In this document: positions 6,413 through 41,328 of the stretch, piece after piece | Layout: every line of letters starts with the position of its first letter | How positions within the stretch are numbered: position 1 is the first letter of the stretch | Assembly (NCBI RefSeq): GCF_900176365.1 | Contig: NZ_FWXY01000002.1 | Span: forward strand, 62,001-126,000 | Source of the DNA: Desulfocicer vacuolatum DSM 3385 | Lineage (GTDB): Bacteria; Desulfobacterota; Desulfobacteria; Desulfobacterales; Desulfobacteraceae | Direction of reading: 5' to 3' | Length of the DNA stretch: 64,000 nucleotides | Notes under the pieces: generated by a model | Databases searched by the model: none | The model's input: only the letters and a program-made list of their open reading frames with translations | What the model was told of the DNA's origin: nothing | Program-made: the position numbers and the translations under genes

Positions 6413-6471
6413 CTATATCCCTTCAACAATTATTTGTCTCTTATCCTTTGCTCATTGGTGAACTTCGTGCC

Positions 6472-7605: not shown

Positions 7606-7945
7606 GTAACTACGAACTTTTTGGCTCCATATGACAGAAACCAGGGAGACTGCCTTCAAACAACATCCGCAGAGCATCCGTAGCACTCATCCCATGCTTC
7701 CGGCACGTGGAAAGATAACTGCGTACGCGGCAGAATATTTGAGCTCCGTCCATGGAACGGAAACACCCGGACACCTTCTGCTGAAGCATTGTCATCCTGA
7801 GGTCATTTCCACCCTGGTTGTTGGTGAAGGTGTGTCAGGTTCCTCCATGAACCTCAGGATCTGTGTTTCAAAGTATCTCAGCCGTTCAAGAAGGCTTCTT
7901 GCCTTGAAGCGCTTGGCCGTCCCCGAGTTCCCTTTTTCCTTTAGA
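7606..7945 (-). pseudogene. IS66-family transposase remnant (3' end of tnpC and element terminus)
   Basis: On the minus strand the translation gives KRFKARSLLERL, then FMEEPDT, a one-base frameshift, FTNNQ, then DLRMTMLQQKVSGCFRSMDG and a DALRMLFEG tail. This is the recognisable C-terminal block of IS66 TnpC transposases. The frame break lies near 7836. The stop codon at 7610-7612 sits next to GTAAC at 7606-7610, which resembles the GTAA ends of IS66 elements. The rest of the element is gone, so this is an old, decayed insertion between hisF and fnlA. The overlapping plus-strand frame is a shadow. Confidence 0.75.
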
Positions 7946-8719: not shown

Positions 8720-8721
8720 GA

Positions 8722-9339: not shown

Positions 9340-9341
9340 TC

Positions 9342-10499
9342 CTAAAAAGCACCTCCCCTGCGGGTTCCGGAAATCTTTGACATTATTTTTTCACCCAGTT
9401 GGATACGCCGGCATTTGTTGCGATAATTCCAATAAAAATTTTTCGGCATTTGGTGATAACTGTGCAGTTTAGCCTCAGAGATACCCAATTTGGCGGCAAC
9501 ATATTCAATCTCCTGCTGAATCCGTTCGGTATCGTATGGCGGGACCTCAAGCAGCTCCAGGGCTTTACCGCGGTCCATCTGCTCAGTTAATATCAGGCTG
9601 GAAAACTGCACCCTGCGCACATCAAAACCAAAGCGAGTAGGAAGCCAATAGCCCTCAAAAAAACGGGTAAATATGGATTCAAAATGTTTTTGTGGATAAG
9701 GCTTCCAACCATACACTTTCTCCAGCTCTATCATAGCCTCAGCCTTGATATAGGGTACAAAATTGAGAGGCTTGAATATTTTCACGCCTTGGAAATAGGG
9801 CAAATAAAATTTACGGTAGAATATTGAGCTGAAAGGATAAGTCGCCATTTTCACAAGACCAAAACGGGAGAGAACATCTCGTACAAGCGTCATATCTGCA
9901 TAATAATAATATTGAAGAGGATAGCATACGCATTCCGTTGATATATTTCCCCCATTTAATATGAATTTTATTCCATATTTCTGAGCATATTGATACAAGA
10001 CACCAATAAAAGCGATATCTTGTGGCCCATCGATATTTGGCAGGCCACTCTTGAACATCGCCAACTGAAAGTCCCGCATTTCTTTCCAGTTAATTACTTC
10101 AGTAAAGAGATCAAGCCCCAAACTATCCACAAGCACTTTAATATTATGTACCGCCAACTCAGTGTTCCAGCCGCCATCCACATGAAAAACCAGCGGACGT
10201 AGACCAAATTCAGTCACCATCACATGCAGCATGTAGGAACTGTCAGCCCCGCCGCTCAACCCCATAATGCAGTCGAATTCATGCCCTTCACCTGATTTCT
10301 TAATAACTTCGACCATCTGTTCCAGCTTTAACCGCCCCTCGGGGCCTGTATGCCAGTGTTGTTTCACAAAGTTATTGAACTCCCAGAAATGGTTTGATAT
10401 CCCGTCATGATCAAAGGTGATCGTGGGATCGGTTATGTCCATTACCGTTTTAGTACAAATTTGGTATGGCCTTTGATTCTCTATGGTGGTATTAAGCAT
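9342..10499 (-). CDS. N-acetyl-sugar amidotransferase (LfnA/WbuX/WbpG family)
   Basis: A 385-residue PP-loop ATPase. SGGADS at residues 82-87 in CIMGLSGGADSSYML is the ATP-pyrophosphatase loop. The N-terminus YQICTKTVMDITDPTITFD is that of the TIGR03573-type N-acetyl sugar amidotransferases, although the usual second cysteines are absent (NHFWEF in place of a CxxC). LfnA of P. aeruginosa O12 and WbuX of E. coli O145 turn L-FucNAc into the acetamidino sugar L-FucNAm. Together with fnlABC, hisH and hisF this predicts L-FucNAm. The gene leads a tightly packed three-gene unit. Substrate choice is inferred from the neighbours. Confidence 0.85.
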   Translation of the reverse strand: MLNTTIENQRPYQICTKTVMDITDPTITFDHDGISNHFWEFNNFVKQHWHTGPEGRLKLEQMVEVIKKSGEGHEFDCIMGLSGGADSSYMLHVMVTEFGLRPLVFHVDGGWNTELAVHNIKVLVDSLGLDLFTEVINWKEMRDFQLAMFKSGLPNIDGPQDIAFIGVLYQYAQKYGIKFILNGGNISTECVCYPLQYYYYADMTLVRDVLSRFGLVKMATYPFSSIFYRKFYLPYFQGVKIFKPLNFVPYIKAEAMIELEKVYGWKPYPQKHFESIFTRFFEGYWLPTRFGFDVRRVQFSSLILTEQMDRGKALELLEVPPYDTERIQQEIEYVAAKLGISEAKLHSYHQMPKNFYWNYRNKCRRIQLGEKIMSKISGTRRGGAF

Positions 10500-20219: not shown

Positions 20220-20244
20220 CTTGCCCGTACAGGTTCAAATTTTA

Positions 20245-20268
20245 GGGCTTGATCATAAGATCGGCCAT
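20245..20268 (+). repeat. Left 24-bp inverted repeat bounding the IS110-containing segment
   Basis: GGGCTTGATCATAAGATCGG plus CCAT is the exact inverse complement of 22045-22068. It follows the stop of the transposase fragment by 25 bases, the position expected for a terminal repeat of that older IS. Confidence 0.6.
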
Positions 20269-20586: not shown

Positions 20587-21600
20587 ATGAAATTTTACGC
20601 TGGAATTGATTTGCATTCAAGTAATAATTACATCGGCGTCATTGATGAGACGGACAAAAGAGTATTTGGCAGGCGGATTGATAACCATCTGCCCTGCGTT
20701 CTATCTGCTCTGGAACCGTTTAAGAAAAATCTCGATGGTGTCGTGGTTGAATCGACCTACAACTGGTACTGGCTGGTGGACGGTCTACAGGAAAACGGAT
20801 ACAAAGTCCACTTGGCTAACCCGGCCGCCATTAAGCAATATGAAGGGTTAAAATACACCGATGACAAATGGGATGCATTCTGTCTGGCGCACATGAAACG
20901 ATTAAATATCTTACCTGAAGGCTACATCTACCCAAAAGATTTGAGACCGGTCAGGGACCTGCTGAGAAGAAGGAGTCTGTTTGTCCACCAGCGTACCAGC
21001 CAAATCCTGAGTCTTCAAAGCATGATTACACGAAATCTGGGTATTCGAATATCTGCTCAAAATATTCGAAAATTCGGACTCGATAGAATGGATCAGATAA
21101 ATGATGTAAATCAAGCGTTTCTCATAGAAAATCAGCTGGGAACCATCGAGCATCTGGACAAGACCATTAAGGGTATGGAAAAGCAGGTGTTGTCCCAGGT
21201 CAAACTCAAGGAGGAATTCAGGCTGCTACAGTCCATTCCCGGCATTGGTACTATCCTGGCGCTGACCATCATGCTGGAGGTGGGAGACATCAAACGTTTT
21301 AAAAAAGTCGGCCATTATTCATCCTACTGCCGCTGTGTCAAAAGTGAAAAGACCTCCAACAGCAAGAAAAAGGGAGAAAACAACAAAAAGAACGGCAACA
21401 AGTACCTGTCCTGGGCATATGTTGAGGCGGCCAATTTTGCAAACCGGTTCAGCCAAGAGGCCCAGCGTTTTTTTCAAAAAAAACAAGCAAAACGGAACAG
21501 GATCGTTGCCACCAAAGCCTTGAGCAACAAGCTATGCAGGGCATCATATTACATCATGCGGGATCAGGTTCCCTTTGATGAAGCAAAACTGTTTTGCTGA
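20587..21600 (+). CDS. IS110-family transposase (DEDD recombinase)
   Basis: An intact 337-residue transposase. The N-terminal RuvC-like DEDD domain starts FYAGIDLHSSNNYIGVID (first Asp), then VVVESTYNWYWLVDGL (Glu) and KYTDDKWDAFCLAHM (Asp pair). The C-terminal transposase_20 domain has LLQSIPGIGTILALTIMLE with the helix-hairpin-helix-like GIG and a serine-rich YSSYCRCVKSEKTSNSKKK segment in which the catalytic Ser is expected. Family members are guided by a bridge RNA transcribed from the element's non-coding end, and a candidate follows the stop codon. AGGAGGTG lies seven bases before the ATG. There is no frameshift, so the element may still be active. Confidence 0.93.
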   Translation: MKFYAGIDLHSSNNYIGVIDETDKRVFGRRIDNHLPCVLSALEPFKKNLDGVVVESTYNWYWLVDGLQENGYKVHLANPAAIKQYEGLKYTDDKWDAFCLAHMKRLNILPEGYIYPKDLRPVRDLLRRRSLFVHQRTSQILSLQSMITRNLGIRISAQNIRKFGLDRMDQINDVNQAFLIENQLGTIEHLDKTIKGMEKQVLSQVKLKEEFRLLQSIPGIGTILALTIMLEVGDIKRFKKVGHYSSYCRCVKSEKTSNSKKKGENNKKNGNKYLSWAYVEAANFANRFSQEAQRFFQKKQAKRNRIVATKALSNKLCRASYYIMRDQVPFDEAKLFC

Positions 21601-22044: not shown

Positions 22045-22068
22045 ATGGCCGATCTTATGATCAAGCCC
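22045..22068 (-). repeat. Right 24-bp inverted repeat bounding the IS110-containing segment
   Basis: Exact inverse complement of 20245-20268, with similarity extending outward through AAATTTT. IS110 elements themselves lack long terminal repeats, so this pair belongs to another, older element. Confidence 0.6.
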
Positions 22069-22150
22069 AAATTTTCAGAACACGACATGTCATCCTCCTG
22101 TGCCCCCGACGATGTAAAAGTGTGTTATGCAGCCTGACTTTTGGATCCTC

Positions 22151-23847: not shown

Positions 23848-25359
23848 TCAATGGTATGGATTAAACATTTTACCTAAAAAGGGAATTTTCACAATCATCC
23901 GATAAACACGATGTTCTTTTCCCAGTCGTGCCAGTAACTGCCGTAAAGAATAAGCTCCGACCACAAATGACAAAATGCCACCAAAAGCCATACTCCACAA
24001 CCCAGGCAACACAAGAGAACCCACAAAAACACAACCCACAATGAAAAGCTGACTGATAATCAAACGTTTAGTAGCTTTATCCCAAGAAAAACAAATCAAG
24101 TGCCTTGCAATAAGCCGAACACCAAAAACATAGAGCACATACATCGAAAAAAATGCAATAGCAGCGCCACATAAACCAAAAAAACGAAGCCCAACAAAAA
24201 TAAAAAAAATATGCAATACATTAAAAAATATCTCAGAAGAAATAAACCAATATTTTTCGCCTTTCGCAAGCTGTATAAACGCCATAGGCCAAGATATCAC
24301 TCGTAAAAAACACCCCATGGCAAACCAACGCAACAAATCAACGGCTGGGGCAAATTGAGTGGAGTACAAAAGATTGATGGCCAATGGAGCTAAGGCAAGG
24401 GTTGCAACTATAGCGGGTGTAGCAAGTAAAAGACCTATTTCAGTCTGTTCGTTAACCAAACAAACCATTTCCTCGTGATCCTCGGAAACACCTGCCAAAC
24501 GGGGATAGAAGTCTGCCCCCATGGCACCGAGTACAAAATTAAGAACATAACCGGAAATAGAAAACGCAGCTTGGTACATACCTAAGCCATCCATCCCAAT
24601 ATCACGGACAATTAATGCCCGGGTGGCATAGGCTGTAAATGTTGTGGCCAAGCCTCCGACCATAAAGGCGGCACCCAGTCCGAGCAAGCTTTTGGCACCA
24701 CTAAAAGTTTCTCTCCAGGACATAGGGATACTTCTTTCAAACAACTTTCTGGAAAACCACCAGGCCGATCCAAGATTAAACAGGGCAATTGCCATCAATG
24801 ACGGTACAATTCCTGCTTTCCCAAAGGATGCATACAGACCTATGCTGATCACGGCCCCAGCTGTTGAGCCAAGAATTTGCACTCGAACCAAATCCGTAAT
24901 ACGTCGCAATCCCTGAATTACTGCCATCTGTCCCTGTGCAATGGTGGTAACAAGAACCACCATAGACAAAAGCATAAGACTGACAGCGTGATCTGAGTTT
25001 CCAAAGGTCAACTGGCTGACCGGAACGGCCAGAGCAGCCAAGACTACTGCACCGACCAAGCCTGTCAGCCAACACATTCGACGTAAAATAGAAACCGTCC
25101 GTGCGACTGCTTCTTCATCTTCTGATCCGGATGAAACGGCGACATCACGAACTCCACTCTGATTGATGCCAAGCCCAGCGAGTTGAATACCAAGCTGAAT
25201 TATAGATTGGTATGCCCCTATTAACCCTACACCTGAAGGCCCGATAAGTATAGCCGCAAATTTAGTTGAGACAACCCCGATCATCATTCTTATGAGCTGG
25301 GAGCCACCGACCATGGAAGAGGATTTTAATATTTGAGAATAGGACTTCTGATTTGTCAA
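23848..25359 (-). CDS. wzx: O-antigen flippase (Wzx-like, MOP superfamily)
   Basis: A 503-residue polytopic protein with about 12-14 transmembrane helices. The N-terminus SSSMVGGSQLIRMMIGVVST and the helix GPSGVGLIGAYQSIIQLGIQ match the MOP-type Wzx/RfbX pattern, and GLGMYQAAFSISGYVLNFVL marks the second half. It moves undecaprenyl-PP-linked repeat units across the inner membrane for Wzy. The start is TTG at 25357-25359, chosen because GGAG lies four bases upstream and no ATG fits before residue 15. Composition here is less AT-rich than in the downstream glycosyltransferase gene, marking a boundary. A Wzy candidate and a Wzz complete the pathway. Confidence 0.85.
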   Translation of the reverse strand: MTNQKSYSQILKSSSMVGGSQLIRMMIGVVSTKFAAILIGPSGVGLIGAYQSIIQLGIQLAGLGINQSGVRDVAVSSGSEDEEAVARTVSILRRMCWLTGLVGAVVLAALAVPVSQLTFGNSDHAVSLMLLSMVVLVTTIAQGQMAVIQGLRRITDLVRVQILGSTAGAVISIGLYASFGKAGIVPSLMAIALFNLGSAWWFSRKLFERSIPMSWRETFSGAKSLLGLGAAFMVGGLATTFTAYATRALIVRDIGMDGLGMYQAAFSISGYVLNFVLGAMGADFYPRLAGVSEDHEEMVCLVNEQTEIGLLLATPAIVATLALAPLAINLLYSTQFAPAVDLLRWFAMGCFLRVISWPMAFIQLAKGEKYWFISSEIFFNVLHIFFIFVGLRFFGLCGAAIAFFSMYVLYVFGVRLIARHLICFSWDKATKRLIISQLFIVGCVFVGSLVLPGLWSMAFGGILSFVVGAYSLRQLLARLGKEHRVYRMIVKIPFLGKMFNPYH

Positions 25360-25421: not shown

Positions 25422-26525
25422 CTATGAAAAGGCATTAACAACCTCGACGACTTCATTTAAGCTTTCCAAACTCATCACAGGGCTCATAGGCAAGCTCAAT
25501 ACTTCAGTATGAATAGATTCTGTAAGTAAAATATTTTGATTAGGCCACTCAACAAAAGCCTGTTGTTTATGGGGAGGTAGTGGGTAATGAATCAAAGTTT
25601 GAACACCAGATTCATTCAAATATTTCTGAAGTTCATCACGCTTTGAACAGCGAACAACAAACAAATGAAACACATGCTGTTCGTATGCTTTCCATGCCGG
25701 CAACACAATAATTGGGTTGTTAATTCGTTCAAGATATATTTTTGCAACATTACGCCTGCCAATATTCTCTTGATCCAAACGCTTCAACTTAACCCGCAGC
25801 AATGCCGCCTGCATCTCATCCAACCGACTGTTAACACCCTTATACAAATTTTCGTACTTCTTATGGCTCCCATAATTACCCAAAGCCCTGATGGTATTTG
25901 CCAGCTCTTCATCATTTGTGGTAACTGCTCCACCATCACCCAAAGCACCAAGGTTTTTACCCGGATAAAAACTAAATCCAGCAGCATCACCCCAACTACC
26001 AGCTTTCTTCCCTTGAAAGCTTGCACCATGGGCCTGAGCAGCATCCTCAAGAACCAACAGCCCATGCCTTTTTGCAATATCCATAATTTCAGGCATTTCA
26101 GCCAATCGGCCATAAAGATGCACCGGCAAAATAACTTTAGTTTTTGAAGTAACAGCTTTTTCCGCCAACACAGGGGATAAATTATAAGTATTTTCATCCG
26201 GCTCAACAAGAACAGGCGTCAAACGATTTTCAGTAATAGCAAAAATGGTTGCAATATAGGTATTTGCAGGCACGATGACCTCGTCACCTTCCTTTAGTTT
26301 ACCCAATTCCTTCCAGGCACGGAGAGTCAATATCAAGGCATCCAAGCCATTCCCAACACCAACGCAATACTTCACCCCGCAGTACTCGGCAAACTCCCTT
26401 TCAAATGCTTGGACTTCTTGGCCTTGAATATACCAACCAGAATCAATAACCCGAGTAGCAGCCGCTATAAACTCTTCACGATAGGCCGCGTTGATTGCCT
26501 TAAGATCCAGAAATGGTACCTTCAT
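25422..26525 (-). CDS. DegT/DnrJ/EryC1-family sugar aminotransferase (FdtB/QdtB-like)
   Basis: A 367-residue PLP enzyme. The Schiff-base lysine is K190 in [14 protein letters not shown], the cofactor-nitrogen Asp is in [12 protein letters not shown] (D161), and the substrate region shows [20 protein letters not shown]. It begins [16 protein letters not shown], as do FdtB/QdtB/VioA-type enzymes. It follows a 3,4-ketoisomerase gene with a four-base ATGA overlap, so the natural substrate is a dTDP-3-keto-6-deoxyhexose, giving dTDP-3-amino-3,6-dideoxy-hexose (Fuc3N or Qui3N) with glutamate as amino donor. Which stereoisomer is made depends on the ketoisomerase. The function is strong; the substrate is inferred from context. 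Confidence 0.88.
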
Positions 26526-26935
26526 CTTTGTTTCACCTGCAAAAATTCATCATAATTTCGAATATATTCAGCTTCATCATACAGCATAGATGCAAGCACA
26601 AGGCAATTGGCACCAGAAGAAAAATTAATTAATTCACGCCATATTTGCTTTGGAATATAGAGACCACAATATGCACGATCCAGGCGAATTGTTTTTTTTT
26701 CTGAGCCATCATCCACAATAACATCAAAAGCGCCCATTACAGAGACCATCAATTGTTGAAGTTCTTGATGCGCATGACCACCCCTGGATTCACCACCAGG
26801 CACATCATAAAGGTAGTAAGTTCTGACAATATCAAAAGGAACTTGCACACCATTAGAAATATGCGTCAATGAACCCCTTTGATCATACATGCGGGGCAAC
26901 TCAATCATTTTGCAGTCATGAACAGTCGTTTTCAT
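26522..26935 (-). CDS. dTDP-4-keto-6-deoxyglucose 3,4-ketoisomerase-like cupin (FdtA/QdtA type), copy 2
   Basis: A 137-residue single-domain cupin of the WxcM-like/FdtA family. The signature is [20 protein letters not shown] with the catalytic-type histidines in GHAH, then [20 protein letters not shown] and [11 protein letters not shown]. These enzymes move the keto group from C4 to C3 of dTDP-4-keto-6-deoxyglucose; FdtA gives the galacto and QdtA the gluco product. It overlaps the next aminotransferase gene and the previous ketoisomerase gene by four bases each (ATGA). It shares about half its residues with the neighbouring copy, which means tandem duplication followed by divergence. Confidence 0.85.
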
Positions 26936-27357
26936 TTTCCCTCCCGCATCAACGTTTTGTATGCATCAAAATTTCTCACATAATCCTCCGCCTTATACGG
27001 GCAGGAAGCAAGTACATAAGCCACTGCATTGGTGGAAAAATTCTGCATTCTTCGCCAGAGCATTTTGGGGACGTAAAGACCATGGTATGCACGATTTAAA
27101 TGAACAATTTTCTGGGCTGTGCCGTCGTCCAAGAACACATCAAAACTGCCCGAGAGAGCGATGATTACTTCATCTTGTTCCTGGAATGCATGACCTCCGC
27201 GCTTCTCACCTCCAGGCACATCGTAAATCCAGTAAACCCGGGAGATATCAAAAGGAATGTGTTGTTGCTGTTCTATAAAAGTAAGATTACCTCTGGGATC
27301 AAGGATTTTAGGAAATTGGATTAGGGATGCGTCGTAAACGGAAGGAATCGAATTCAT
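26932..27357 (-). CDS. dTDP-4-keto-6-deoxyglucose 3,4-ketoisomerase-like cupin (FdtA/QdtA type), copy 1
   Basis: A 141-residue cupin from the ATG at 27355-27357. A longer frame to 27432 adds 25 residues unlike the family and would overlap the previous gene, so the shorter form is chosen. The core is YWIYDVPGGEKRGGHAFQEQ (His-Ala-Phe instead of His-Ala-His), VFLDDGTAQKIVHLNRAYHG and LYVPKMLWRRM. The second histidine of the GHAH motif is lost here, whereas copy 2 keeps it. In FdtA/QdtA these residues govern acid-base chemistry and stereochemistry, so the copies may have different products, may act together, or this one may be inactive. Confidence 0.82.
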   Translation of the reverse strand: MNSIPSVYDASLIQFPKILDPRGNLTFIEQQQHIPFDISRVYWIYDVPGGEKRGGHAFQEQDEVIIALSGSFDVFLDDGTAQKIVHLNRAYHGLYVPKMLWRRMQNFSTNAVAYVLASCPYKAEDYVRNFDAYKTLMREGK

Positions 27358-27424
27358 ATATACACCCGAATATTTCTTTATTTTTTCAATTAATTTCAAA
27401 GCATTAGATAGAAAATACCAACAA

Positions 27425-27931
27425 TCATTCAAAATTTAATTCAAAATTGCAAATATTCTTTTCAAATAATTTACTTTCATATCCAAAAGTTGCCCAGATA
27501 TTCCAATCTTCAATTTTCAAACTATGAATATAAAAAAGCTTTTCTTTTTTTGGGAATTTCACTTTTACGACACTAAATTTATCAGGTACTTCAGAAACAG
27601 GTCTTGATTTTACGAGGATTAATATTGGAATATTTAATAGCTTGGCAACAACTTCGTAATATGTCCAAACTTTATAAAAGGTATTGCTCTCTTTAATAGA
27701 AAAATATTTACTAAGGTGCTCAGGGACATCTCTCTGATAAGTTTCAATATCCAAAGCAATATTTAATGAATTTTCTAAAATTTCAATTGATGGAGACCAC
27801 GTGTACTTAAACCCTAAACCATCATATGATATCGCATAATTATTTTTCTTTGGATTAATGTTAATAGTGCTGCAATCACAATTCAGAGACCCCCAGATAT
27901 AATCTTGCACCCAAGAAGTCTTAGATGTCAA
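27425..27931 (-). CDS. Divergent 4'-phosphopantetheinyl-transferase-like protein (tentative)
   Basis: A 168-residue protein. Not a clear family member by eye, but it keeps the spaced residues of Sfp-type phosphopantetheinyl transferases: D61-x-E63 in IALDIETY (metal-binding Asp/Glu) and W89, E93, K97 in VWTYYEVVAKLLNIPI, spaced as in the W-x2-K-E-x3-K motif, with Tyr at the first Lys position. Such enzymes load the 4'-phosphopantetheine arm on ACP serines. The operon includes an ACP, so this is the natural modifying enzyme. It starts at TTG 27929-27931, which overlaps the TGA of the reductase gene. No homology search was possible. Alternative: an unrelated small protein in the acylation route. 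Confidence 0.45.
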   Translation of the reverse strand: MTSKTSWVQDYIWGSLNCDCSTININPKKNNYAISYDGLGFKYTWSPSIEILENSLNIALDIETYQRDVPEHLSKYFSIKESNTFYKVWTYYEVVAKLLNIPILILVKSRPVSEVPDKFSVVKVKFPKKEKLFYIHSLKIEDWNIWATFGYESKLFEKNICNFELNFE

Positions 27932-28662
27932 TTGCTGATACCGCCATCAATAAAAATTGTTTGTCCTGTTATATTGGTTTGCTCAAATAACAACATATTT
28001 ATAATAGGGAGGATATTAGATGTTTGCGTTAATTCTTTTGTCGGTGTACGCCGCTTAATTGTATTTAACTGGTCTGCCCTTAGCACTGATGACATCTCAG
28101 ATTCAAAAAAACCCGGGGCGATGGAATTAATATAAATCTTTCTTTCTCCCACCTCCCTTGCTAAAGAGCGAGTAAACGCATTCAAGGCACCTTTAGTGGC
28201 TGAATAAGTTGAAAGGCCAGGATAGCCCCTTTCTGCACAAATAGAGCTGATATTGACTATCCTTCCTCCATTGTTTGCCAAGAGCATGTATTTCAAAACC
28301 AGACGTGTCAAAATTATTGGCGCGACCAAATTAATGTTGACGATATTATGAATGGCTTCTTCTGGTGTATGCACAAGTAAATGATCTTGACCTATGGCGG
28401 CATTATTTATCAATGCATCAATTCTGCCATACTTTTGATTAACTGCAATTAAGAATTGTTTCAAAGCCACTGCATCTTGCAAATCAACTTCATCAAAATA
28501 AAGTTTCTCATGATATTCTAAAATTAAATCAGAAATCTCTGTGGTTTTTTTCCTTGCAAAGGTTACGACGGTATGCCCCTTGTGGAGTAAATGTTTTACA
28601 AGAGCTAACCCAAGCCCTCTACTTCCTCCACTTACAATAACAACCCTTTCGATATTCATCAT
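27928..28662 (-). CDS. Short-chain dehydrogenase/reductase, 3-oxoacyl-ACP-reductase-like
   Basis: A 244-residue classical SDR. It has VIVSGGSRGLGLALVKHLLH (NADPH loop), LINNAAIGQDH, the catalytic Ser in VNISSICAERGYPG, Tyr-x3-Lys in STYSATKGALNAF, and the C-terminal GQTIFIDGGISN. The wording is FabG-like, so the likely reaction is NADPH-dependent reduction of a 3-keto group on an ACP-bound acyl chain. It overlaps the ligase gene upstream and the PPTase-like gene downstream. In this context it would make a 3-hydroxyacyl group for transfer to an amino sugar. Reduction of a keto sugar is an alternative. Confidence 0.8.
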   Translation of the reverse strand: MMNIERVVIVSGGSRGLGLALVKHLLHKGHTVVTFARKKTTEISDLILEYHEKLYFDEVDLQDAVALKQFLIAVNQKYGRIDALINNAAIGQDHLLVHTPEEAIHNIVNINLVAPIILTRLVLKYMLLANNGGRIVNISSICAERGYPGLSTYSATKGALNAFTRSLAREVGERKIYINSIAPGFFESEMSSVLRADQLNTIKRRTPTKELTQTSNILPIINMLLFEQTNITGQTIFIDGGISN

Positions 28663-29933
28663 TTTATCTCCGCTTTTAAATTATAACCAACAGGAATCTC
28701 GGAAAGGTTATTCCATATTCTGGGAACTGCAAATTCGGGACAATTTTCACGGCATAACGTTTCAAGTTCTTTTTCAATATCCGCTGTAAATTTGATATTA
28801 TTTTTTAATACTATGTCAGCGGCAACCAGAAAGCCAACCAATGGAGCTTTTCGAGGATAAACACGACACCAGAGTACTTTTGAATTTCTTAATATTAAGG
28901 ATTCAATGTCCACGGGATAGGCTTTACTGCCACCAACATTAATCATATTTGTTTTATCCCTTCCGAGAAATAAAACTCTATCTTTTCGGATTTCAACCAA
29001 GTCACCCGTATCAATCCAATTTTCTTTATCTTTATCAATTGAAATTGCAGAGAAAATTGATTTTAAATAGAGGTGGTTACCAACAATTTTCATTTTTTTA
29101 TTGTCAATCCATTTTTCAGGAAAACCTTGCTTACCATCTTTTACAACAATACAGGCACCTGCCTCTGTGGACGCATAAATATGAAAAATAGCAGCATCTG
29201 GGTAAATTTCCCGCAAGTGATCCAAAACTGATTGGTCGGCGGCTTCACCACCTAATGAAATTTGTTTAAATGGTATTCCTTTCAAGTCCTTTTCATTCAA
29301 ACCTAAAAAAGCCATTCTCCAAAAAGTGGGGGTACTCGAAATAGCAGTCACGTTGTGATGGGAAGCCTGCAATAACATCTCTGCTGGTTCTGCACTCAAT
29401 GGGAATACAAGTTCCTGACCTTCAAGGAACAACCCCATGCATATCATCTGATACCATGCATATGTGCCAGGATTATAAGGTACCATCCATTTAAGCGGAT
29501 TTGATTTTTTTACGTTTTGAAAAGTATTTAGGGTATTCCATGTGTGTTCAATAAGCTTTGGTATGCCAGTTGTGCCTGAAGTAAGCATTGAAATTCTACC
29601 AGGTACAACTTCTTCAATCTTATTAGCTATGACATCATCACTGACATTAATTGGCTTACCTATAATAGAATATCCATTATCTGATAAAATAGCCCTGATA
29701 TTTTCATTGAGCCGTTCATGCGTTAAAATCAATCCGTCCGCTTTTTTTCGATTTAGGTAAGCGACTGCCCCCACGGCATCATGAGAATTTTCTATAGAAA
29801 ATGCGATTTTATGTAGTCCATGGTCAAGCAGTGATTTTAAATCTTTGTTTTTTTCTTCATAGACCTCATCCCAGGTTGAGTTATTATGCTCCCCAAAAAA
29901 AATTTTATTTTCCCAATAGATTTTCTGTTCCAT
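28659..29933 (-). CDS. AMP-forming acyl-ACP/CoA ligase (ANL superfamily)
   Basis: A protein of about 424 residues (from the ATG at 29931-29933, which overlaps the ACP TAA as TAATG; a frame three codons longer exists). The ANL hallmark P-loop is SMLTSGTTGIPKLIEHTW, then the A5-like YASTEAGACIV, A7 IDTGDLVEIRKDRVLFLGRD and a GG-K hinge with NMINVGGSKAYPVDIES. The length is short because the N-terminal subdomain and the C-terminal part are reduced compared with full acyl-CoA synthetases (about 500-550 residues). It should activate a short carboxylic acid with ATP and load it on the holo-ACP encoded just upstream. Substrate unknown. Confidence 0.8.
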   Translation of the reverse strand: MEQKIYWENKIFFGEHNNSTWDEVYEEKNKDLKSLLDHGLHKIAFSIENSHDAVGAVAYLNRKKADGLILTHERLNENIRAILSDNGYSIIGKPINVSDDVIANKIEEVVPGRISMLTSGTTGIPKLIEHTWNTLNTFQNVKKSNPLKWMVPYNPGTYAWYQMICMGLFLEGQELVFPLSAEPAEMLLQASHHNVTAISSTPTFWRMAFLGLNEKDLKGIPFKQISLGGEAADQSVLDHLREIYPDAAIFHIYASTEAGACIVVKDGKQGFPEKWIDNKKMKIVGNHLYLKSIFSAISIDKDKENWIDTGDLVEIRKDRVLFLGRDKTNMINVGGSKAYPVDIESLILRNSKVLWCRVYPRKAPLVGFLVAADIVLKNNIKFTADIEKELETLCRENCPEFAVPRIWNNLSEIPVGYNLKAEIK

Positions 29934-30169
29934 TACGCACATTCCTGAAAAAATTCTAAGACATCACTGACCGTTTCAATCTTTCGTAAATGCGAAGCAT
30001 CAAAATTAAGCTCTTTTCCAGTTGTCATCTCCACGCGTAAAGCCAACTCAGAAAAATCAAGGCTGCGAAAGCCTATTTCTCGCAACTTTTGGTCATGAGA
30101 GTGAATGGGTTCTTTATTTTGCTTTTCCAAAATCATATTCATCAGTGTTAAAGTTTCAGATAGTTCCAT
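29933..30169 (-). CDS. Acyl carrier protein
   Basis: A 78-residue ACP: four-helix size, with the phosphopantetheine-serine motif IGFRSLDFSELALRVEM (S36) in place of the common GADSL, and an acidic loop. The residue before Ser is Arg instead of Asp, a change seen in specialised ACPs that use a dedicated transferase. Its stop overlaps the ligase start. It is not beside fab genes, so it most likely serves the local ligase, reductase and acyltransferase. The call is from length and motif. Confidence 0.85.
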   Translation of the reverse strand: MELSETLTLMNMILEKQNKEPIHSHDQKLREIGFRSLDFSELALRVEMTTGKELNFDASHLRKIETVSDVLEFFQECA

Positions 30170-30182
30170 AATCGTTGTCCCA

Positions 30183-30965
30183 TCAGTTTATTTTGAGATT
30201 CATTTTATTTATCATTATTTCATTTAACAAAGAATCCAAACGGTTTGTAATTTCCTCTGTGTTTGGATAAACATGTCGATAATGATTCATCCAAGGATGC
30301 CTCTGCCCGCTGTTGAAATCTATCAAACGACTAACATGGTTGACTACTTTGCCATCCTCACCCGCAATGACTGCACCTGCAGGGACATCTCCTCTTGCCT
30401 GAGCACCAGCACTGATAAAAGCACCAGTCCCTACAATAGAGCCTGGCATCAAAGTGGCACCGACACATACAACAGCCCCATCTTTGATTTTAACTGGTGC
30501 TTGGGCATTAGATGGGGGCAAGGGATCATTTGTGGCAGTAACAAGGGAAAAAATCCAGACGAAATGTCCTATTTCTGCGCCTTTCCCAATATGAGAATAT
30601 CCATGAAAACGACAATAGTCTCCAATTACACAGTCGCCCTCAATATCAGAAAAATTTCCAACTCTCAAATTTTCACCCACCATGGTTCCTTCACGTATGA
30701 CAACATGATGTCCGGTTTCCAGAGCAGGGCCAAATTCAGAATTCTCATAAATTATTGAAAAAGATCTAATATGACTATTTGAGCCAATAATTACTGGTTT
30801 TTTATCGCTTAAAATGGAGGGATGGCCAATTTGACAATAATCATCTATCTGGACGTTATCACCAATAACCACATTATCAAAAATCTTAGCGTAATCACCG
30901 ATAACAACATTTTTGCCCAAAATGGCCTTGGAAGAAATAATCGATGTTTTTGAAAATTCACTCAT
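30183..30965 (-). CDS. Left-handed beta-helix amino-sugar N-acyltransferase (FdtC/QdtC-like)
   Basis: A 260-residue protein from the ATG at 30963-30965; a TTG 12 bases further upstream would give 264. Hexapeptide repeats run from about residue 8 to 205 (SIISSKAILGKNVVIGDYAK, GHPSILS), with the loop FSLVTATNDPLPPSNAQAPV and a catalytic-type His in RFHGYSHIG. The C-terminus holds a long helix. FdtC and QdtC acetylate the 3-amino group of dTDP-3-amino-3,6-dideoxyhexoses with acetyl-CoA. Sitting next to an ACP, it may use acyl-ACP in place of acetyl-CoA, giving an unusual N-acyl group. The family is certain; the acyl donor is inferred. Confidence 0.83.
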   Translation of the reverse strand: MSEFSKTSIISSKAILGKNVVIGDYAKIFDNVVIGDNVQIDDYCQIGHPSILSDKKPVIIGSNSHIRSFSIIYENSEFGPALETGHHVVIREGTMVGENLRVGNFSDIEGDCVIGDYCRFHGYSHIGKGAEIGHFVWIFSLVTATNDPLPPSNAQAPVKIKDGAVVCVGATLMPGSIVGTGAFISAGAQARGDVPAGAVIAGEDGKVVNHVSRLIDFNSGQRHPWMNHYRHVYPNTEEITNRLDSLLNEIMINKMNLKIN

Positions 30966-31148
30966 TTGCTTTTCCAATTTTTTAATTGACTGCCCAATAA
31001 AAATCAGGACTCCCTTCTAAATTCAATTTGATTGATTAAAGAGGAGTGGCTTAAAAACTCTATGTTCATTTTTTTGAAGAATATACAAATTTATCAAAAT
31101 TTGAGTTGAACTGGGCAATATTCTTTATAATTGTTTTTTACAAATTCA

Positions 31149-32045
31149 TCAAAAATTATTAAAAATATTTGAAGCGGAAACGCTTTGGCGTAGCCCTTTT
31201 AGATACGCTCCATAACCGTTTTTCAAAAGTGGTTTAGCCAATTCATCTAACGCCTCAATAGAAATATAGCCTTTTCGGAAAGCAACTTCTTCCACACACC
31301 CGACTTTAAGTCCTTGGCGCTTTTCAATGGTTTCAATAAATGTCCCAGCGTCCATAAGGGATTCATGTGTACCTGTATCCAACCATGCAAAACCTCGACC
31401 CAGAAGCTGAACTTTAAGATTCCCCCGGGACAAGTAGGCGTTATTAACGTCTGTGATTTCAAGCTCACCCCGGGCTGAGGGTTTGATGTTTTGTGCAATA
31501 TCCACAACTGAGTTATCGTAAAAATAGAGACCGGGAACTGCAAAATTCGATTTCGGTTTTTGGGGTTTTTCTTCTATGCTGAGCACTTTACCGGTTTCAT
31601 CAAAGTCCACAACCCCATACCGGGATGGGTCATTGACCCAATAACCAAAAACAATTCCTCCATCCTTCAATCCAGTACATTTTTTTAAGAGCGGCTGAAA
31701 TCCCTGTCCATAAAATAAATTATCACCAAGGATCAGGCAGACTGAATCATTCCCAATAAAATCTTTACCCAGGACAAATGCCTGGGCAAGCCCTTCAGGC
31801 TCTGGCTGTTCAACGTAAGAAATTGAAATCCCCCATTGTGAGCCACCTTTCAGCAATTTCTTAAATCGTGGCAGATCTTCCGGAGCAGAGATCAGCAGAA
31901 TCTCCCTGATACCCGCCAGCATCAGCGTTGACAAAGGGTAATATATCATGGGCTTGTCATACACCGGCAGGAGTTGCTTGGACCCTGCAATTGTCAGCGG
32001 GTATAACCGCGTACCGGAACCACCTGCTAATATGATGCCTTTCAT
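31149..32045 (-). CDS. rmlA: Glucose-1-phosphate thymidylyltransferase
   Basis: A 298-residue nucleotidyltransferase with the RmlA/RfbA hallmarks [20 protein letters not shown] (dTTP loop), [31 protein letters not shown] (catalytic-type Asp), [20 protein letters not shown] and [14 protein letters not shown]. It makes dTDP-glucose from glucose-1-phosphate and dTTP. It is the first gene of the minus-strand locus. The next step enzyme RmlB, needed before the 3,4-ketoisomerases, is not found in this window and must come from elsewhere in the genome. A GGGGTCTGACCC repeat core lies about 35 bases upstream, in the presumed promoter region. Confidence 0.95.
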
Positions 32046-34338: not shown

Positions 34339-34764
34339 TCAGACGTCGGTCATCATTTTTACGAGGGTGCGGGCGCGTTGCCCCACCTGGGTGTACCACC
34401 GGGAATCCTTCATTTCTGCGGCGGCCCGGGGGTAATCCAGATCGTTGACGGCGGTGATCATTTTTTTGAATTTCCGGAACCGGCCGGGTCCCAGGTTAAA
34501 CCGCATATCCACAAGCACCAGCTGCACCGTTTCTGGCAGCAGCTCAAACCCCTTAAAAACTTTGTTTAAATCCGCAATGCACTCCTCAATATCATTTTCA
34601 AGAAGCATCACTGCTTCCTTTTCCGTGATGCCTTTGTCCTCAAGGTTTCTGCCGATGCCTATTGTTAATTTACCCGCCGGGCAATGATAGGGTTTCAGGC
34701 GCAGGCCTTCGTGTTTTGTCAATTGATCCGTCAGTTTTTCATGAAACGCTTTGTCATGGCTCAT
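34339..34764 (-). CDS. Phage-type lysozyme (glycoside hydrolase 24), copy 1
   Basis: A 141-residue endolysin from the ATG at 34762-34764, preceded by GGAGG seven bases upstream. The longer open frame is not used. The family-24 site is KHEGLRLKPYHCPAGKLTIG: catalytic Glu in HEG, a Cys where T4 lysozyme has Asp20, Thr in LTIGIGR. The Cys form is common in phage relatives. The middle helix block LVDMRFNLGPGRFRKFKKMI is conserved. It cuts the MurNAc-GlcNAc bond of peptidoglycan. No signal peptide is present, so it needs a holin-like exit or is moved by another route. A second copy lies at 40903-41328. Confidence 0.88.
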   Translation of the reverse strand: MSHDKAFHEKLTDQLTKHEGLRLKPYHCPAGKLTIGIGRNLEDKGITEKEAVMLLENDIEECIADLNKVFKGFELLPETVQLVLVDMRFNLGPGRFRKFKKMITAVNDLDYPRAAAEMKDSRWYTQVGQRARTLVKMMTDV

Positions 34765-34789
34765 AATTTGCCTCCAAATCAAATCAGGG

Positions 34790-35278
34790 TCAGGGCAGCA
34801 GCTCCGGGGCATTTCGTTTGCGGTTGCCCCGCCAGGCCCACCACCCAGCCACGGACAGGGTGGCCCATCCCAGGGTATCAATGACGGCCATGCCGTTCAC
34901 CTCTTTGCCCACGTCCTTGAAAATGGTGTCCCAGAAGTGCTGGCCCCGGCCCTTGCCGTATTTATATATGGTGCCGTCGGCTTCCTTTGCCCAGAGATAA
35001 TCGTATCGGTACCCGAAATCGTGGATCAACCCGGGGATGAGGAGCAATCCGATGGGGGACAGCACGCCCCACAAGGGTCTGGGGATGGAGGCCCCGTCAA
35101 ACAGAAAACCTTTGGGAATGATGATGCGCGGCCCGCCGTTGGGAAGGGAGTATTCCCAGTTTTCCATGACTTCCCACTGCCGCACCGTGGTTACCCAGCG
35201 CCAGACCCGCTTTGGCGCACCACAGCCCTTGGTGTCAATGGGCCAGGGCCTCAAAATCGGCATATGTTGTATTTTCAT
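34790..35278 (-). CDS. DUF1353 phage-type protein with C-terminal membrane segment, copy 1
   Basis: A 162-residue protein. The DUF1353 block is IPKGFLFDGASIPRPLWGVL, PIGLLLIPGLIHDFGYRYDY and YKYGKGRGQHFWDTIFKDVG; the His-Asp pair in GLIHDFGYR and the later His are typical of the family. The tail VIDTLGWATLSVAGWWAWRG is a possible membrane helix followed by basic residues. It is placed 25 bases before the lysozyme gene, so a role in cell lysis (holin- or spanin-like) is plausible but unproven. The start ATG is directly preceded by a GGGGTCATACCCC repeat core and has no usual ribosome-binding site. Copy 2, nearly identical, is at 41355-41843. Confidence 0.75.
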   Translation of the reverse strand: MKIQHMPILRPWPIDTKGCGAPKRVWRWVTTVRQWEVMENWEYSLPNGGPRIIIPKGFLFDGASIPRPLWGVLSPIGLLLIPGLIHDFGYRYDYLWAKEADGTIYKYGKGRGQHFWDTIFKDVGKEVNGMAVIDTLGWATLSVAGWWAWRGNRKRNAPELLP

Positions 35279-35592: not shown

Positions 35593-36210
35593 TCAGAGGG
35601 TATCTGTAGAATCCAGAAGATGCAGAGGGATATTGATATCTTCATTGTTCAATATACTTTCAACCATGGAAATGTCCAACTGAACAATTTTGGCAATAGT
35701 TGACACGCTGATTCCCTGTTCATGGGCACGGCGGACAAAAGAAAGAAGCTTTTTCTCCTCTCCTTTTTTTCTGCCTATTCTTTCAGCACTTGTAATATAA
35801 GGCATGTTTTTCTCCTTTTCATACGCTTTCAACTCTTCAAGAAAAATTTCCTCAAGGGCTTCGGGCAAAATCAACACCCAGTCTATAAAACGGTACAGGT
35901 TTACGACCGTTCTGGAAAATCTGATTTGCTCTGGGCCTGAACTTCTATATGGATCAATATCCATTTTTTGTTATTATTCTTGAGCGTGATTTCTACACTT
36001 GAGCGTGATTTCTACAAGTTTATCCGTATGCCTTTGACCGAGAACAGACTCTTTTGTCAATTTCTGAAATTCTTTATCCAGAAATTTGATATCTTTGCCC
36101 CAATCAATGTCCTCCTCTGAGCCGGGGACAAAAAAGGCCATGAACTGAGGGAAAAAGAATTCAATGATCTCTTTCCAGGGGGTGTCGTATGTTTGATTTT
36201 TATGGGTCAT
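35593..36210 (-). pseudogene. Broken Rpn/YhgA-like PD-(D/E)XK nuclease gene
   Basis: Pieces of one gene in different frames. The N-terminal piece (35974-36210) starts MTHKNQTYDTPWKEIIEFFF and runs to KLVEITL. Next, in another frame, NKKWILIHIEVQAQSKSDF carries the catalytic EVQ motif and stops. Then a deletion joins to VNLYRFIDWVLILPEALEEI and the normal C-terminus with IPLHLLDSTD at 35593. A 19-base tandem duplication (CTTGAGCGTGATTTCTACA, 35980-36017) marks one lesion. Compared with intact members of about 300 residues the middle is missing. Rpn proteins are recombination-promoting nucleases of the YhgA-like family. Confidence 0.7.
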
Positions 36211-36231
36211 AATTCCGAATGTTGGTGTCAT

Positions 36232-36319: not shown

Positions 36320-36985
36320 TTAAAAACCCAGTCGTTGGGCCAATGCTTTTTGGGCATGGGGTTCGCCGTGTACCAGGATTATTTTTCCCGGGGGCTTGGG
36401 CATGGATTTTACCCAGTTAACAAGGGTATTTTGATCGGCATGGGCTGAATAACCGGACAGGGTATGAATGGCAGCCTTCACCGGTATCTTTTTTTCCATC
36501 ATGCGGCGGCCCGGGGTGCCTTTTGCCTGGTATCCCACAAAAAAGAGATCGTTTTTCGCATCGTTCAAACCCTGCTCCAGATGATCCACAATGCGTCCTC
36601 CGGTGCACATGCCCGACCCCTTTTCGTATAAAAGCCTTGTCAGCTCTATTTTCCATTGCTTTCTCAACGAATGGTCTTTTCTTGTCTCAAGTGCTTTTAA
36701 ATGTGCCATCACCACAATGGCAAAGGGGTTATCCTGTCTTTCAAGATACGCCCATTTCTCCTGATAATCAAGGAGGAGGGTTACTTCTACGAGTTTATCC
36801 GTATGCCTTTGGCCGAGAACAGACTCTTTTGTTAATTTCTGAAATTCTTTATCAAGAAATTTAATTTCTTTGCCCCAGTTAATGTCCCCTTCCGAACCGG
36901 GAACAAAAAAGGCCATGAACTGTGGAAAAAAGAATTCAATGATCTCTTTCCAAGGGGTGTCGTATGTTTGATTTTTTTGGGTCAT
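36320..36985 (-). CDS. Chimeric gene: Rpn-like N-terminal part fused to the C-terminus of an MBL-fold protein
   Basis: The 221-residue product (from the ATG at 36983-36985) has two origins. Residues 1-140 are Rpn/YhgA-like (KNQTYDTPWKEIIEFFF, NPFAIVVMAHLKALETRKDH, IELTRLLYEKG) but lack the catalytic IHIEVQ region kept in the broken copy next door. From GSGMCTGGRIVDHLEQGLND onward it is nearly identical to the last 95 residues of the beta-CASP MBL protein at 38081-39388, including GYSAHADQNTLVNWVKSM. The joint is at the shared GSGMCTGG. Because it has neither nuclease core nor the MBL metal site, it is unlikely to keep either activity. It may be a neutral product of recombination. Confidence 0.75.
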   Translation of the reverse strand: MTQKNQTYDTPWKEIIEFFFPQFMAFFVPGSEGDINWGKEIKFLDKEFQKLTKESVLGQRHTDKLVEVTLLLDYQEKWAYLERQDNPFAIVVMAHLKALETRKDHSLRKQWKIELTRLLYEKGSGMCTGGRIVDHLEQGLNDAKNDLFFVGYQAKGTPGRRMMEKKIPVKAAIHTLSGYSAHADQNTLVNWVKSMPKPPGKIILVHGEPHAQKALAQRLGF

Positions 36986-37006
36986 AGCTCCGAATGTTGG
37001 GCTCAT

Positions 37007-38080: not shown

Positions 38081-39388
38081 TTATTTTAAACCAAGGCGCT
38101 GGGCCAGGGCTTTCTGGGCATGGGGTTCTCCGTGGACCAGAATTATTTTTCCCGGAGGCTTGGGCATGGATTTCACCCAGTTAACAAGGGTATTTTGATC
38201 CGCATGGGCCGAGTATCCGGACAGGGTATGAATGGCGGCCTTAACCGGTATCTTTTTTTCCATCATGCGGCGGCCAGGTGTGCCCTTGGCCTGGTACCCC
38301 ACAAAAAAAAGGTCATTTTTCGAATCGTTCAGGCCCTGTTCCAGGTGATCCACAATGCGGCCCCCTGTACACATGCCGGAACCTGCAATGATGACGGCCG
38401 GTCCCTTAATATCCATGAGCTGCTTATGATCCCGGTATTTTTCCACAGAATAGAGGTTCTTAAAATCCAGGGGATGATCCCCGTCAGCTTTAAGAGCCTT
38501 TGCCTCCTGATCCCAGAAGCTTTCCAGATCCGCATAGATTTTTGTAATTTTCAGGCCCAGGGGAGAATCAATGAACACAGGCACCTTGGTTTTAATGCGG
38601 TCCAGTTCGTAGATCAGCTCCTGGGTGCGGCCCAATGAAAACGCCGGGATATAAACAATGCCGTTGTCTGCCAGGGCTTTGTCCAAAAGCGTCTTCAATG
38701 TTTCAATGCGCTGTTTTCTGTTGGTGTGGTTCCGATCTCCGTAGGTGGATTCCAGTATCAGCAGATCACAGGATTCCGGTGGGTCAGGGTCCGGCAGTAT
38801 AGGCGTATCACAACACCCCAGATCCCCGGAAAAAATAACCGAATATGTGGGGGTCAGGCTTCGCTTATTGCTGTTATTGGGGGGTAAAGTATGGGGGAGC
38901 CGGGGAAAGCAAAATCGGATAAAGCACGAGCCCAGAATATGCCCGGCATTGCCAAGCTTGAATGTGATCCCTTTTTTAAGGGAAAATGTTTCATGCAGTT
39001 CAAAGCCCCAGGAGAGGTCATCAATGGCCCGTTCCATGCGGCGGATCTCTTTATGGCTCCTGTTGCTAAAGGACATGCCGTCGTGGAGCATGGGAATCAG
39101 CAGTGCCTTTGTGGCATGGGTGCAGATGATCTCGCCTTTGAACCCGGCATCTATGAGATCCGGTACCCGGCCGATGTGATCAATGTGGGCATGGGTCAAA
39201 AACAGGTAATCAACATCTTGGGGCTGCACCGGGAATTGATCAAAGGGGATCTTCGGGTCGTGGCCTTGGGCCATGCCGCAGTCCACCAGGATGTTTACGC
39301 CCTCTTTGGAACCCGGCCGGGTCTGCACCAGATGGCAGGAACCTGTGACGCACTCTTTTGCTCCAAGATGTGTAATTTTCATTTTCAT
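38081..39388 (-). CDS. MBL-fold beta-CASP RNA exonuclease-like protein, with in-frame repeat insertion
   Basis: A 435-residue member of the CPSF/RNase J-like MBL family. Motif II is LTHAHIDHIGR; before it NILVDCGMAQG, after it GNAGHILGSCFIRF and FSGDLGCCDTPI. The beta-CASP part has STYGDRNHTNRKQRIETLKT, the Zn-dependent specificity domain SGMCTGGRIVDHLEQGLND and GYSAHADQNTLVNWVK. A stretch PHTLPPNNSNKRSLTPT, between SCFIRF and SVIFSGDLG, is translated from a 44-base repeat box (38850-38893) on the opposite strand. It enlarges a loop at the metal-site hairpin without breaking the frame. The C-terminal 95 residues occur again in the chimera at 36320. The start codon abuts a repeat core (CAGACCCC-ATG). 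Confidence 0.85.
   Translation of the reverse strand: MKMKITHLGAKECVTGSCHLVQTRPGSKEGVNILVDCGMAQGHDPKIPFDQFPVQPQDVDYLFLTHAHIDHIGRVPDLIDAGFKGEIICTHATKALLIPMLHDGMSFSNRSHKEIRRMERAIDDLSWGFELHETFSLKKGITFKLGNAGHILGSCFIRFCFPRLPHTLPPNNSNKRSLTPTYSVIFSGDLGCCDTPILPDPDPPESCDLLILESTYGDRNHTNRKQRIETLKTLLDKALADNGIVYIPAFSLGRTQELIYELDRIKTKVPVFIDSPLGLKITKIYADLESFWDQEAKALKADGDHPLDFKNLYSVEKYRDHKQLMDIKGPAVIIAGSGMCTGGRIVDHLEQGLNDSKNDLFFVGYQAKGTPGRRMMEKKIPVKAAIHTLSGYSAHADQNTLVNWVKSMPKPPGKIILVHGEPHAQKALAQRLGLK
38850..38893 (+). repeat. 44-bp repeat box inside a coding sequence
   Basis: Identical to 34251-34294. It lies within the MBL-fold gene, is read antisense to the repeat's GGGGTCAGG orientation, and keeps the frame open. 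Confidence 0.85.
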
Positions 39389-40902: not shown

Positions 40903-41328
40903 TCAGGCGTTGCTCATCATGTTTACGAGGGTCTCTGCCCGTCGGCCCACCTGGCCATACCATCGTGAATCCTTCATCTCCGCACCGGCCCTGCCAAAAT
41001 CCTGATCCTTAACAGCGGCAATCATTTTCTTAAATTGCCGGAACCGGCCAGGCCCCAGGTTAAACCGCATATCCACAAGCACCAGCTGCACCGCTTCCGG
41101 CAGCAGATCAAACCCCTGGAAAACCGTTTCCAGATCCTCAATACACTCCTGAATATCATTTTCCAGCAGCATCACCGCTTCTTTGTCCGTGATGCCTTTG
41201 TCCTCAAGATTCCTGCCGATACCAATGGTCAGCTTGCCTGCCGGGCATCGATAGGGTTTCAGACGCAGGCCTTCGTGGGTTGTCAGTTGATCCGTCAGTT
41301 TTTTATGAAAATCCTTGTCACGGCTCAT
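40903..41328 (-). CDS. Phage-type lysozyme (glycoside hydrolase 24), copy 2
   Basis: A 141-residue protein, roughly 85-90% identical by eye to copy 1 at 34339. It keeps the catalytic Glu and the Cys-Thr pair (THEGLRLKPYRCPAGKLTIG) and has only scattered substitutions, such as SRDKDFHKKL at the start. A GGAGG ribosome-binding site precedes the ATG as in copy 1. Both copies are open and intact, so the duplication is recent or maintained by selection. No capsid, tail, integrase or terminase gene is near, so this is not part of a complete prophage. Confidence 0.87.
   Translation of the reverse strand: MSRDKDFHKKLTDQLTTHEGLRLKPYRCPAGKLTIGIGRNLEDKGITDKEAVMLLENDIQECIEDLETVFQGFDLLPEAVQLVLVDMRFNLGPGRFRQFKKMIAAVKDQDFGRAGAEMKDSRWYGQVGRRAETLVNMMSNA

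Follow-up and report, generated by a model that had tools for sequence, protein, structure and literature searches.

A putative carrier-protein-based N-acylation unit within a dTDP-3-amino-3,6-dideoxyhexose cassette of Desulfocicer vacuolatum DSM 3385

What does an acyl carrier protein, with a ligase that could load it, do in the middle of an amino-sugar gene cassette? The question is raised by a 64,000-nucleotide (nt) stretch of Desulfocicer vacuolatum DSM 3385 (contig NZ_FWXY01000002.1, positions 62,001–126,000), the whole of which is hereafter called the window. The open reading frame (ORF) list of the window places eight genes at 25422–30977, one more than the seven of the initial annotation, all on the minus strand and encoding, in order of transcription, a left-handed beta-helix (LβH) acyltransferase (264 aa), an acyl carrier protein (ACP, 78 aa), an ANL ligase (427 aa), a short-chain dehydrogenase/reductase (SDR, 244 aa), a protein resembling phosphopantetheinyl transferases (PPTase-like, 168 aa), two FdtA-family proteins (FdtA1 and FdtA2), and a DegT aminotransferase. 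Pfam and NCBIfam bear out the gene families first named for this minus-strand block, except for the PPTase-like protein, which has no match, and the ACP, which falls below the Pfam cut-off. We favor, with some reserve, the reading that a carrier-protein-based N-acylation unit has been built into an ordinary cassette for a dTDP-3-amino-3,6-dideoxyhexose (Fuc3N or Qui3N).

Exchange pattern and the altered acyltransferase

As read from the sequence, this proposal is carried by gene content, by what has and has not been exchanged relative to related loci, and by an altered acyltransferase. A genome of the same family (G735) has a locus (L150) with the gene order rmlB-rmlA-LβH-FdtA1-FdtA2-DegT-Wzx, other genes being interspersed; its rmlB was named by reading the translation rather than by a family search. 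Proteins of the window and of G735 are 83% identical for RmlA, 83% for FdtA1, 76% for FdtA2, 68% for DegT, and 69% for the Wzx-type flippase, and only 41% for the acyltransferase. The acyltransferases of G735 and another relative (G553) share 67% identity, and those of six relatives are 53%–67% identical among themselves and 40%–45% identical to the window enzyme. The G735 locus showed no counterpart of the ACP, ligase, SDR, or PPTase-like genes. When 389 genomes of the class and 395 of the phylum were searched for LβH relatives (E ≤ 1e-30), nine loci emerged outside the window genome, among them G735 and a shorter relative lacking FdtA (L152, in G586); the stretch fetched around each of the nine held neither ACP nor ligase nor SDR homologues. 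Plasmids held no LβH relatives at E 1e-20. Because the odd acyltransferase occurs exactly where the module is present, the acyltransferase and carrier genes look to have been swapped jointly, and the simplest reading of these comparisons is that acyltransferase and donor module arrived together. A five-gene block, which probably charges a small carrier of its own with an unusual acid for a surface sugar, seems to have taken the place of an ordinary acetylation gene in an O-antigen cluster; the sugar branch is unremarkable, and it is the acyl branch that seems to have been grafted in.

The acyltransferase (30183–30977, minus strand) is of the QdtC type, with hexapeptide repeats (PF00132, 6e-22) and similarity to QdtC (3fs8, 2e-37) over residues 7–239. 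In an alignment with eight relatives, from which the shorter G586 enzyme was excluded, it differs at 27 of the 71 columns that are invariant among them, whereas each relative, left out in turn as a control, differs at 1–11 otherwise invariant columns. In the C-terminal GxP turn, Asp208 replaces the proline (GEDGK), which is kept as GVP, GSP, or GNP in all eight aligned relatives as well as in the G586 enzyme and QdtC. Pcryo_0637, an LβH N-acetyltransferase dependent on coenzyme A (CoA), has an Asn-Pro peptide in its last reverse turn that is cis when CoA is bound and trans when it is not (PMC8040287), and by its position the GxP turn of the window enzyme would correspond to this CoA-responsive turn. 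Given both the exchange pattern and the loss of a CoA-linked proline in the enzyme that accompanies it, the module probably works for the acyltransferase encoded beside it.

The same residue bears on another account, in which the module would release its product as acyl-CoA or as a modified acid in free form. The ACP would then serve only to hold the substrate during the SDR step, and the sugar would receive its acyl group from a CoA-bound donor. The appeal of this account lies in precedent: QdtC, the closest solved relative, is described as an N-acetyltransferase in literature cited by PMC7885111, and the FdhC and QdhC 3-hydroxybutanoyl transferases are reported without an ACP gene in that of PMC4869667. 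The loss of the GxP proline is at odds with a CoA-bound donor, however, and a family scan of the block revealed neither a thioesterase nor a second acyl-activating gene, and we hold this account to be improbable.

Several observations weigh against an acyltransferase that has changed over to a carrier-bound donor. To some extent, the 27 changed columns reflect nothing more than that the window enzyme is the most divergent of the set. No locus joining LβH, ACP, ligase, SDR, and PPTase genes to FdtA was found elsewhere in the genomes searched, and a single genome therefore carries the association. Two LβH acyltransferases located next to ACP-ligase-SDR cassettes (L131 and L132) keep GNPA/GNPG; they seem to belong to a different LβH type, and because they retain the motif, the loss of the proline is a clue and not a rule. 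The block contains no ketosynthase that could supply a 3-oxoacyl substrate. G+C content is 29%–39% in the block genes and 42%–44% in the RmlA, DegT, and Wzx genes, a contrast that is weak because the two FdtA genes, which lie outside the block, stand at 39%–41%. The ranking of LpxA first among NCBIfam models for the window enzyme was discarded as evidence of ACP use, five of seven ACP-less relatives also ranking LpxA first.

As a general mark of acyltransferases at ACP cassettes, loss of the GxP proline was ruled out by L131, L132, and L125. A search for repeats showed no convincing one that could mark mobile borders flanking the block. In G735, the ORF of the QdtC-type acyltransferase (L150:8453–9838) continues into a second LβH-like stretch, for a total of 461 aa.

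A portable ACP-ligase-SDR module with a divergent carrier and a PPTase-like protein

The ligase (28659–29942, minus strand; AMP-binding 5e-18, with AMP-binding_C) carries the motifs TSGTTGIPK, YASTE, TGD, GGSK, and KAEIK in a pattern check. With these core motifs, the C-terminal Lys, and an ACP gene overlapping its own, it is likely an acyl-ACP synthetase. In a tree it groups with 11 ligases of ACP cassettes (99/99 support) on a long branch of its own, and six other ligases of the same genome fall apart from it. The FabG-like SDR (27928–28662, minus strand; adh_short 1e-49) has the motifs GGSRGLG, NNA, NISS, and YSATK by the same kind of check, and its best NCBIfam model is TIGR01830 (8e-53, under the cut-off of that model).

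At the 11 related ligase loci, the ACP gene adjoins the ligase gene in 10 and lies one gene away in the other (L145), and an SDR gene adjoins the ligase gene in 10. Six sequences, the window ACP and those of five counted loci (L122 and L129–L132), made up the ACP profile, and the remaining six loci therefore constitute an independent test of ACP adjacency. The counts take in three loci at E 5e-44 or better from the 80 matches listed (closer relatives may lie outside this list), four of 14 plasmid ligase records (those opened), and the phylum or order matches in G325, G077, G284, and G752; weaker matches in G001, G066, G296, and G274, as well as G553:C61, G429, and G522, are excluded. Cassettes of this kind occur in a pseudaminic acid-type locus in G325, in Azospirillum flagellin/pseI loci with a ketoacyl synthase III, in two plasmid loci with the order acyltransferase-ACP-ligase-SDR, and in a polyketide synthase (PKS) locus in G752, and in three Bradyrhizobium/Hyphomicrobiales loci among the matches listed no glycan genes were recognised on reading the translations. 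Neighbor names in L120 (pseudaminic acid genes) and L040–L042 likewise come from reading translations. Phages contained no ligase relatives at E 1e-10.

The initial annotation had tied its proposal of ACP-delivered acyl groups to the company of the sugar genes, and on this point it did not hold: none of the 11 loci showed an FdtA homologue, and the module is portable. Portability does not refute a role in the window, and the exchange pattern and the lost CoA-linked proline still speak for delivery from the ACP. It does lend weight to the rival in which the acyltransferase is a fast-diverged, acetyl-CoA-dependent QdtC and the module acylates another sugar, a lipid, or a small molecule, merely sharing the operon, as might a module that elsewhere lies beside pseudaminic acid genes, flagellin, PKS genes, or loci without evident glycan genes. 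A second, NeuD-type acyltransferase at 880–1935 of the same locus could be taken in the same sense. Set against this are the nine loci without the module, which all keep the GxP proline, the sole module-bearing locus being the one with the odd acyltransferase, and the position of the module directly between the acyltransferase and FdtA genes in one tightly packed string. We consider this rival unlikely, though it deserves more weight than the CoA-bound donor considered above. The packing is somewhat looser than the tight overlaps first described: five junctions overlap by 4–10 nt (10 nt for ACP/ligase; 4 nt for ligase/SDR, SDR/PPTase-like with a TTG start, FdtA1/FdtA2, and FdtA2/DegT), a 13-nt gap separates the LβH and ACP genes, and an overlap between the PPTase-like gene and FdtA1 depends on a TTG start of FdtA1. 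Homology favors the ATG at 27357 as the start of FdtA1, which leaves a gap of 67 nt after the PPTase-like gene.

The carrier itself (29933–30169, minus strand) appears to be a genuine though divergent ACP. TIGR00517 matches it at E 6e-4 and 2lol at 9e-4, and the PF00550 PP-binding score of 16.0 bits is under the cut-off of 20.8. The attachment Ser is kept and is preceded by Arg (GFRSL, within GFRSLDF; the usual motif is (G)xDSL), whereas the other ACPs compared, which adjoin related ligases, read DSL or DSM, except for GFTSL in G752 (the L121 ACP is excluded from this comparison).

The PPTase-like protein (27425–27931, minus strand; G+C 29%) owes its label to the initial annotation, and no Pfam model matches it even at E 10. 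The label gains support from HHalign against a profile of 23 PPTases (the ORFs passing a motif filter from 32 loci), in which the protein scores 31.3 (probability 39%), beyond the maximum of 19.9 among 150 shuffles; among 54 other ORFs, only the PPTase-type ORF in L122 scores above it. With hmmsearch it reaches 8.8 bits, the best of 500 shuffles reaching 5.8. Residues D61, E63, E81, T90, E93, and K97 are retained in the PPTase alignment, and D61, E63, E81, E93, and K97 are in register with 19 PPTases, although 4 of 60 shuffles and 4 of 27 unrelated ORFs retain equally many columns. The count of invariant residues was consequently rejected as proof of a PPTase, shuffles and unrelated ORFs doing nearly as well. 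A single-sequence AlphaFold model was useless (predicted local distance difference test [pLDDT] 32), and a second model, built on the PPTase alignment, was of middling quality (mean pLDDT 67). With the latter, Foldseek showed no PPTase among the 50 rows listed, and VIA-align placed PPTases at ranks 1–10 (Z 6.7–8.9, next row 4.9), a result that the input alignment favors. On balance, the protein is quite probably a divergent PPTase. The genome has two other PPTase-family genes, and relatives of the PPTase-like protein were detected in 2 of 291 genomes of the order, namely its own and one with a weak match (E 8e-4) containing an internal stop codon; plasmids held none. A dedicated PPTase for an ACP with an altered recognition site would be an attractive idea.

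The same divergence could instead signal a block that is decaying or non-functional, the ACP having lost its usual Asp and the PPTase-like protein being degenerate. The GFRSL motif, the low PP-binding score, the want of any Pfam match for the PPTase-like protein, and an IS110 transposase within the locus would all fit such decay. Yet every frame is open and the genes are tightly packed, the ligase, SDR, and aminotransferase motifs are usual, the attachment Ser is retained, and the PPTase-like protein aligns with the acidic residues and lysine of PPTases. Decay is accordingly a very improbable explanation.

Proposed pathway and comparison with known systems

In the pathway that we infer, as regards the donor, acyl group, and sugar stereochemistry as well as the steps themselves, RmlA, together with an RmlB coded elsewhere, would provide a 4-keto sugar; FdtA2, perhaps paired with FdtA1, would move the keto group to C3; and DegT would aminate the C3 keto sugar. 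On the acyl side, the PPTase-like protein would turn the atypical ACP into its holo form, and the ligase would activate a free acid with ATP and load it onto this local ACP. The SDR would reduce or oxidise the acid, most simply between a 3-oxo and a 3-hydroxy form, before it is loaded or while it is bound to the ACP. The LβH enzyme would then move the acyl group from the ACP, rather than from acetyl-CoA, onto the 3-amino group. In evolutionary terms, acyltransferase and donor module would have displaced an ancestral acetyl-CoA-type acyltransferase as one block. The data are compatible with both Fuc3N and Qui3N and do not decide between them. A 3-hydroxylated acyl group, first suggested by the initial annotation, is likewise something we infer; a short 3-hydroxyacyl group is tentatively the likeliest product class, because bacterial surface polysaccharides with 3-hydroxybutanoylated Fuc3N and Qui3N have been described (PMC4869667, PMC3726653). 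More speculative, and in our view doubtful as a whole, is a fully insulated line with an ACP bearing Arg before Ser, its own minimal PPTase, a ligase, an SDR, and a QdtC-derived enzyme converted from CoA to acyl-ACP, making an N-acyl Fuc3N or Qui3N outside the reach of known O-antigen pathways and exchangeable as one block.

The locus was at first called poorly described, which holds for only part of it. Sets of an ACP, a 3-oxoacyl-ACP reductase, and an AMP-dependent synthetase appear in group II flagellin glycosylation islands of Aeromonas (PMC7874193), and Acp/CaiC/FabG sets in enterobacterial flagellin islands (PMC4875605), as far as the accessible text of both goes. Since these published islands carry in a surface-glycan locus the same three gene types as the window, the kind of cassette is known. 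In the same accessible text, the islands are flagellar, with LuxC/LuxE present and pseudaminic acid in Aeromonas; the window, in contrast, has a dTDP-3-amino-3,6-dideoxyhexose, an LβH acyltransferase, and a local PPTase-like gene. Its gene types thus match those of the islands, while its locus context is one of Wzx, FnlA, WbuX, and glycosyltransferases.

By sequence, the window enzyme is an LβH protein like those of QdtC/FdtC systems and has the same isomerase and aminotransferase partners; it departs from them in the lost GxP proline, the 27 changed invariant positions, and the ACP module alongside. Tetronate genes of Vibrio cholerae O1 (rfbKLMN), which serve N-acylated perosamine, place an ACP and an acyl-protein synthetase in an O-antigen locus, with a different ligase family and perosamine as the acceptor. 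FdhC is a GNAT enzyme, not an LβH protein. FdhC and QdhC would likewise give N-3-hydroxyacyl Fuc3N or Qui3N, the likely product class of the window, and unlike the window they come with no mention of an ACP or ligase in the available part of PMC4869667. The AcpR-AasR-SPT sphingolipid system, in which a dedicated ACP and an adenylating ligase feed serine palmitoyltransferase, is a functional precedent for the proposed pathway in that acyl-ACP from a dedicated ligase is used by one acyl-transferring enzyme, and differs in that the acceptor is serine, not a nucleotide sugar, and the group a fatty acyl (PMC9386255, in its accessible portion).

FdtA/QdtC-type genes with an ACP-ligase-SDR set and a local PPTase-like gene look to be a new combination, no description of which in an O-antigen locus was evident in open-licence literature (subscription literature was largely outside the scope). 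As for the sphingolipid system, we know of no FdtA-type genes in it. If the proposed pathway is true, unusual N-acyl groups of O-antigens could be gained by exchanging an acyltransferase together with its acid-loading carrier, and not by adjusting the use of acyl-CoA; the window would also provide a natural example of a β-helix N-acetyltransferase converted to an acyl-ACP enzyme, and a candidate orthogonal ACP/PPTase pair. For the ACP-ligase-SDR sets of flagellin islands, the available text gives little account of function (PMC7874193, PMC4875605), and the window would offer a simpler system with a likely acceptor.

The sugar branch and the surrounding polysaccharide locus

The dTDP-sugar branch starts with rmlA (31149–32045, minus strand), encoding a glucose-1-phosphate thymidylyltransferase (TIGR01207, 486 bits, above cut-off) and located 171 nt before the acyltransferase gene. 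Another contig of the same genome carries an rmlB-like gene, whose product shares 53% identity with the corresponding rmlB-like protein in G735. Two 3,4-ketoisomerases had been proposed. This stands for FdtA2 (26522–26935, minus strand; PF05523 3e-52, 5tpu 3e-37, 2pa7 8e-31), a cupin of the FdtA/QdtA type that keeps HAH as in FdtA. FdtA1 (26932–27432, minus strand; PF05523 6e-50, 2pa7 8e-30) has HAF in the alignment and lacks the HxH pair (His49/His51 in FdtA); with this substitution, its role may differ from that of an ordinary second isomerase. Tandem FdtA pairs show the same arrangement in the window and in L146, L148, L149, and L150, with HAF or HAY in the first copy and HAH in the second in all five aligned pairs, and the first copy possibly forms a heteromer or has an altered reaction.

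The DegT aminotransferase (25422–26525, minus strand; PF01041 4e-112) has the SFYPGK lysine motif and is assigned the FdtB/QdtB role. DegT sugar aminotransferases with N-terminal extensions were seen in relatives, at L150:5701–7317, at L151:10278–11825, and perhaps at L148:2987–4570. The extension matches a PIN domain in L150 (8.8e-6) and, under the cut-off, in L151 (0.001), with no such match in L148; one or two ORFs of ~100 aa without a family match precede each extended gene. A toxin-antitoxin-like fusion within a sugar cassette would be odd.

A Wzx-type flippase gene (23848–25359, minus strand; Polysacc_synt_3 8e-20) follows DegT after 62 nt. The wider locus encodes FnlA, a WbcJ-type reductase, a WecB-type epimerase, WbuX/HisH/HisF2, an initial sugar transferase, and glycosyltransferases, and this gene set therefore supports an O-antigen or similar polysaccharide. 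The genes scanned in the locus included Wzx, FnlA, WbuX, and glycosyltransferase genes and no flagellin gene. The FnlA, WbcJ-type, WecB-type, and WbuX/HisH/HisF2 genes, at 4067–10499, are a set whose product is presumably L-FucNAc and its acetamidino form (L-FucNAm), and this region is likely an L-FucNAc/L-FucNAm branch of the same polysaccharide.

The IS110-type transposase gene within the O-antigen locus spans 20587–21600, in a stretch bounded by 27-nt inverted repeats at 20242–20268 and 22045–22071. Beside the locus, near-identical lysozyme-like stretches occur in two ORFs (34339–34881, PF00959, and 40903–41328). The ORFs at 35974–36231 and 36320–37006 have a near-identical N-terminal stretch in common, and these two and a third at 38081–39388 include a partial and a full beta-CASP/RMMBL protein. 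Such repeated gene pieces suggest duplication or recombination beside the locus.

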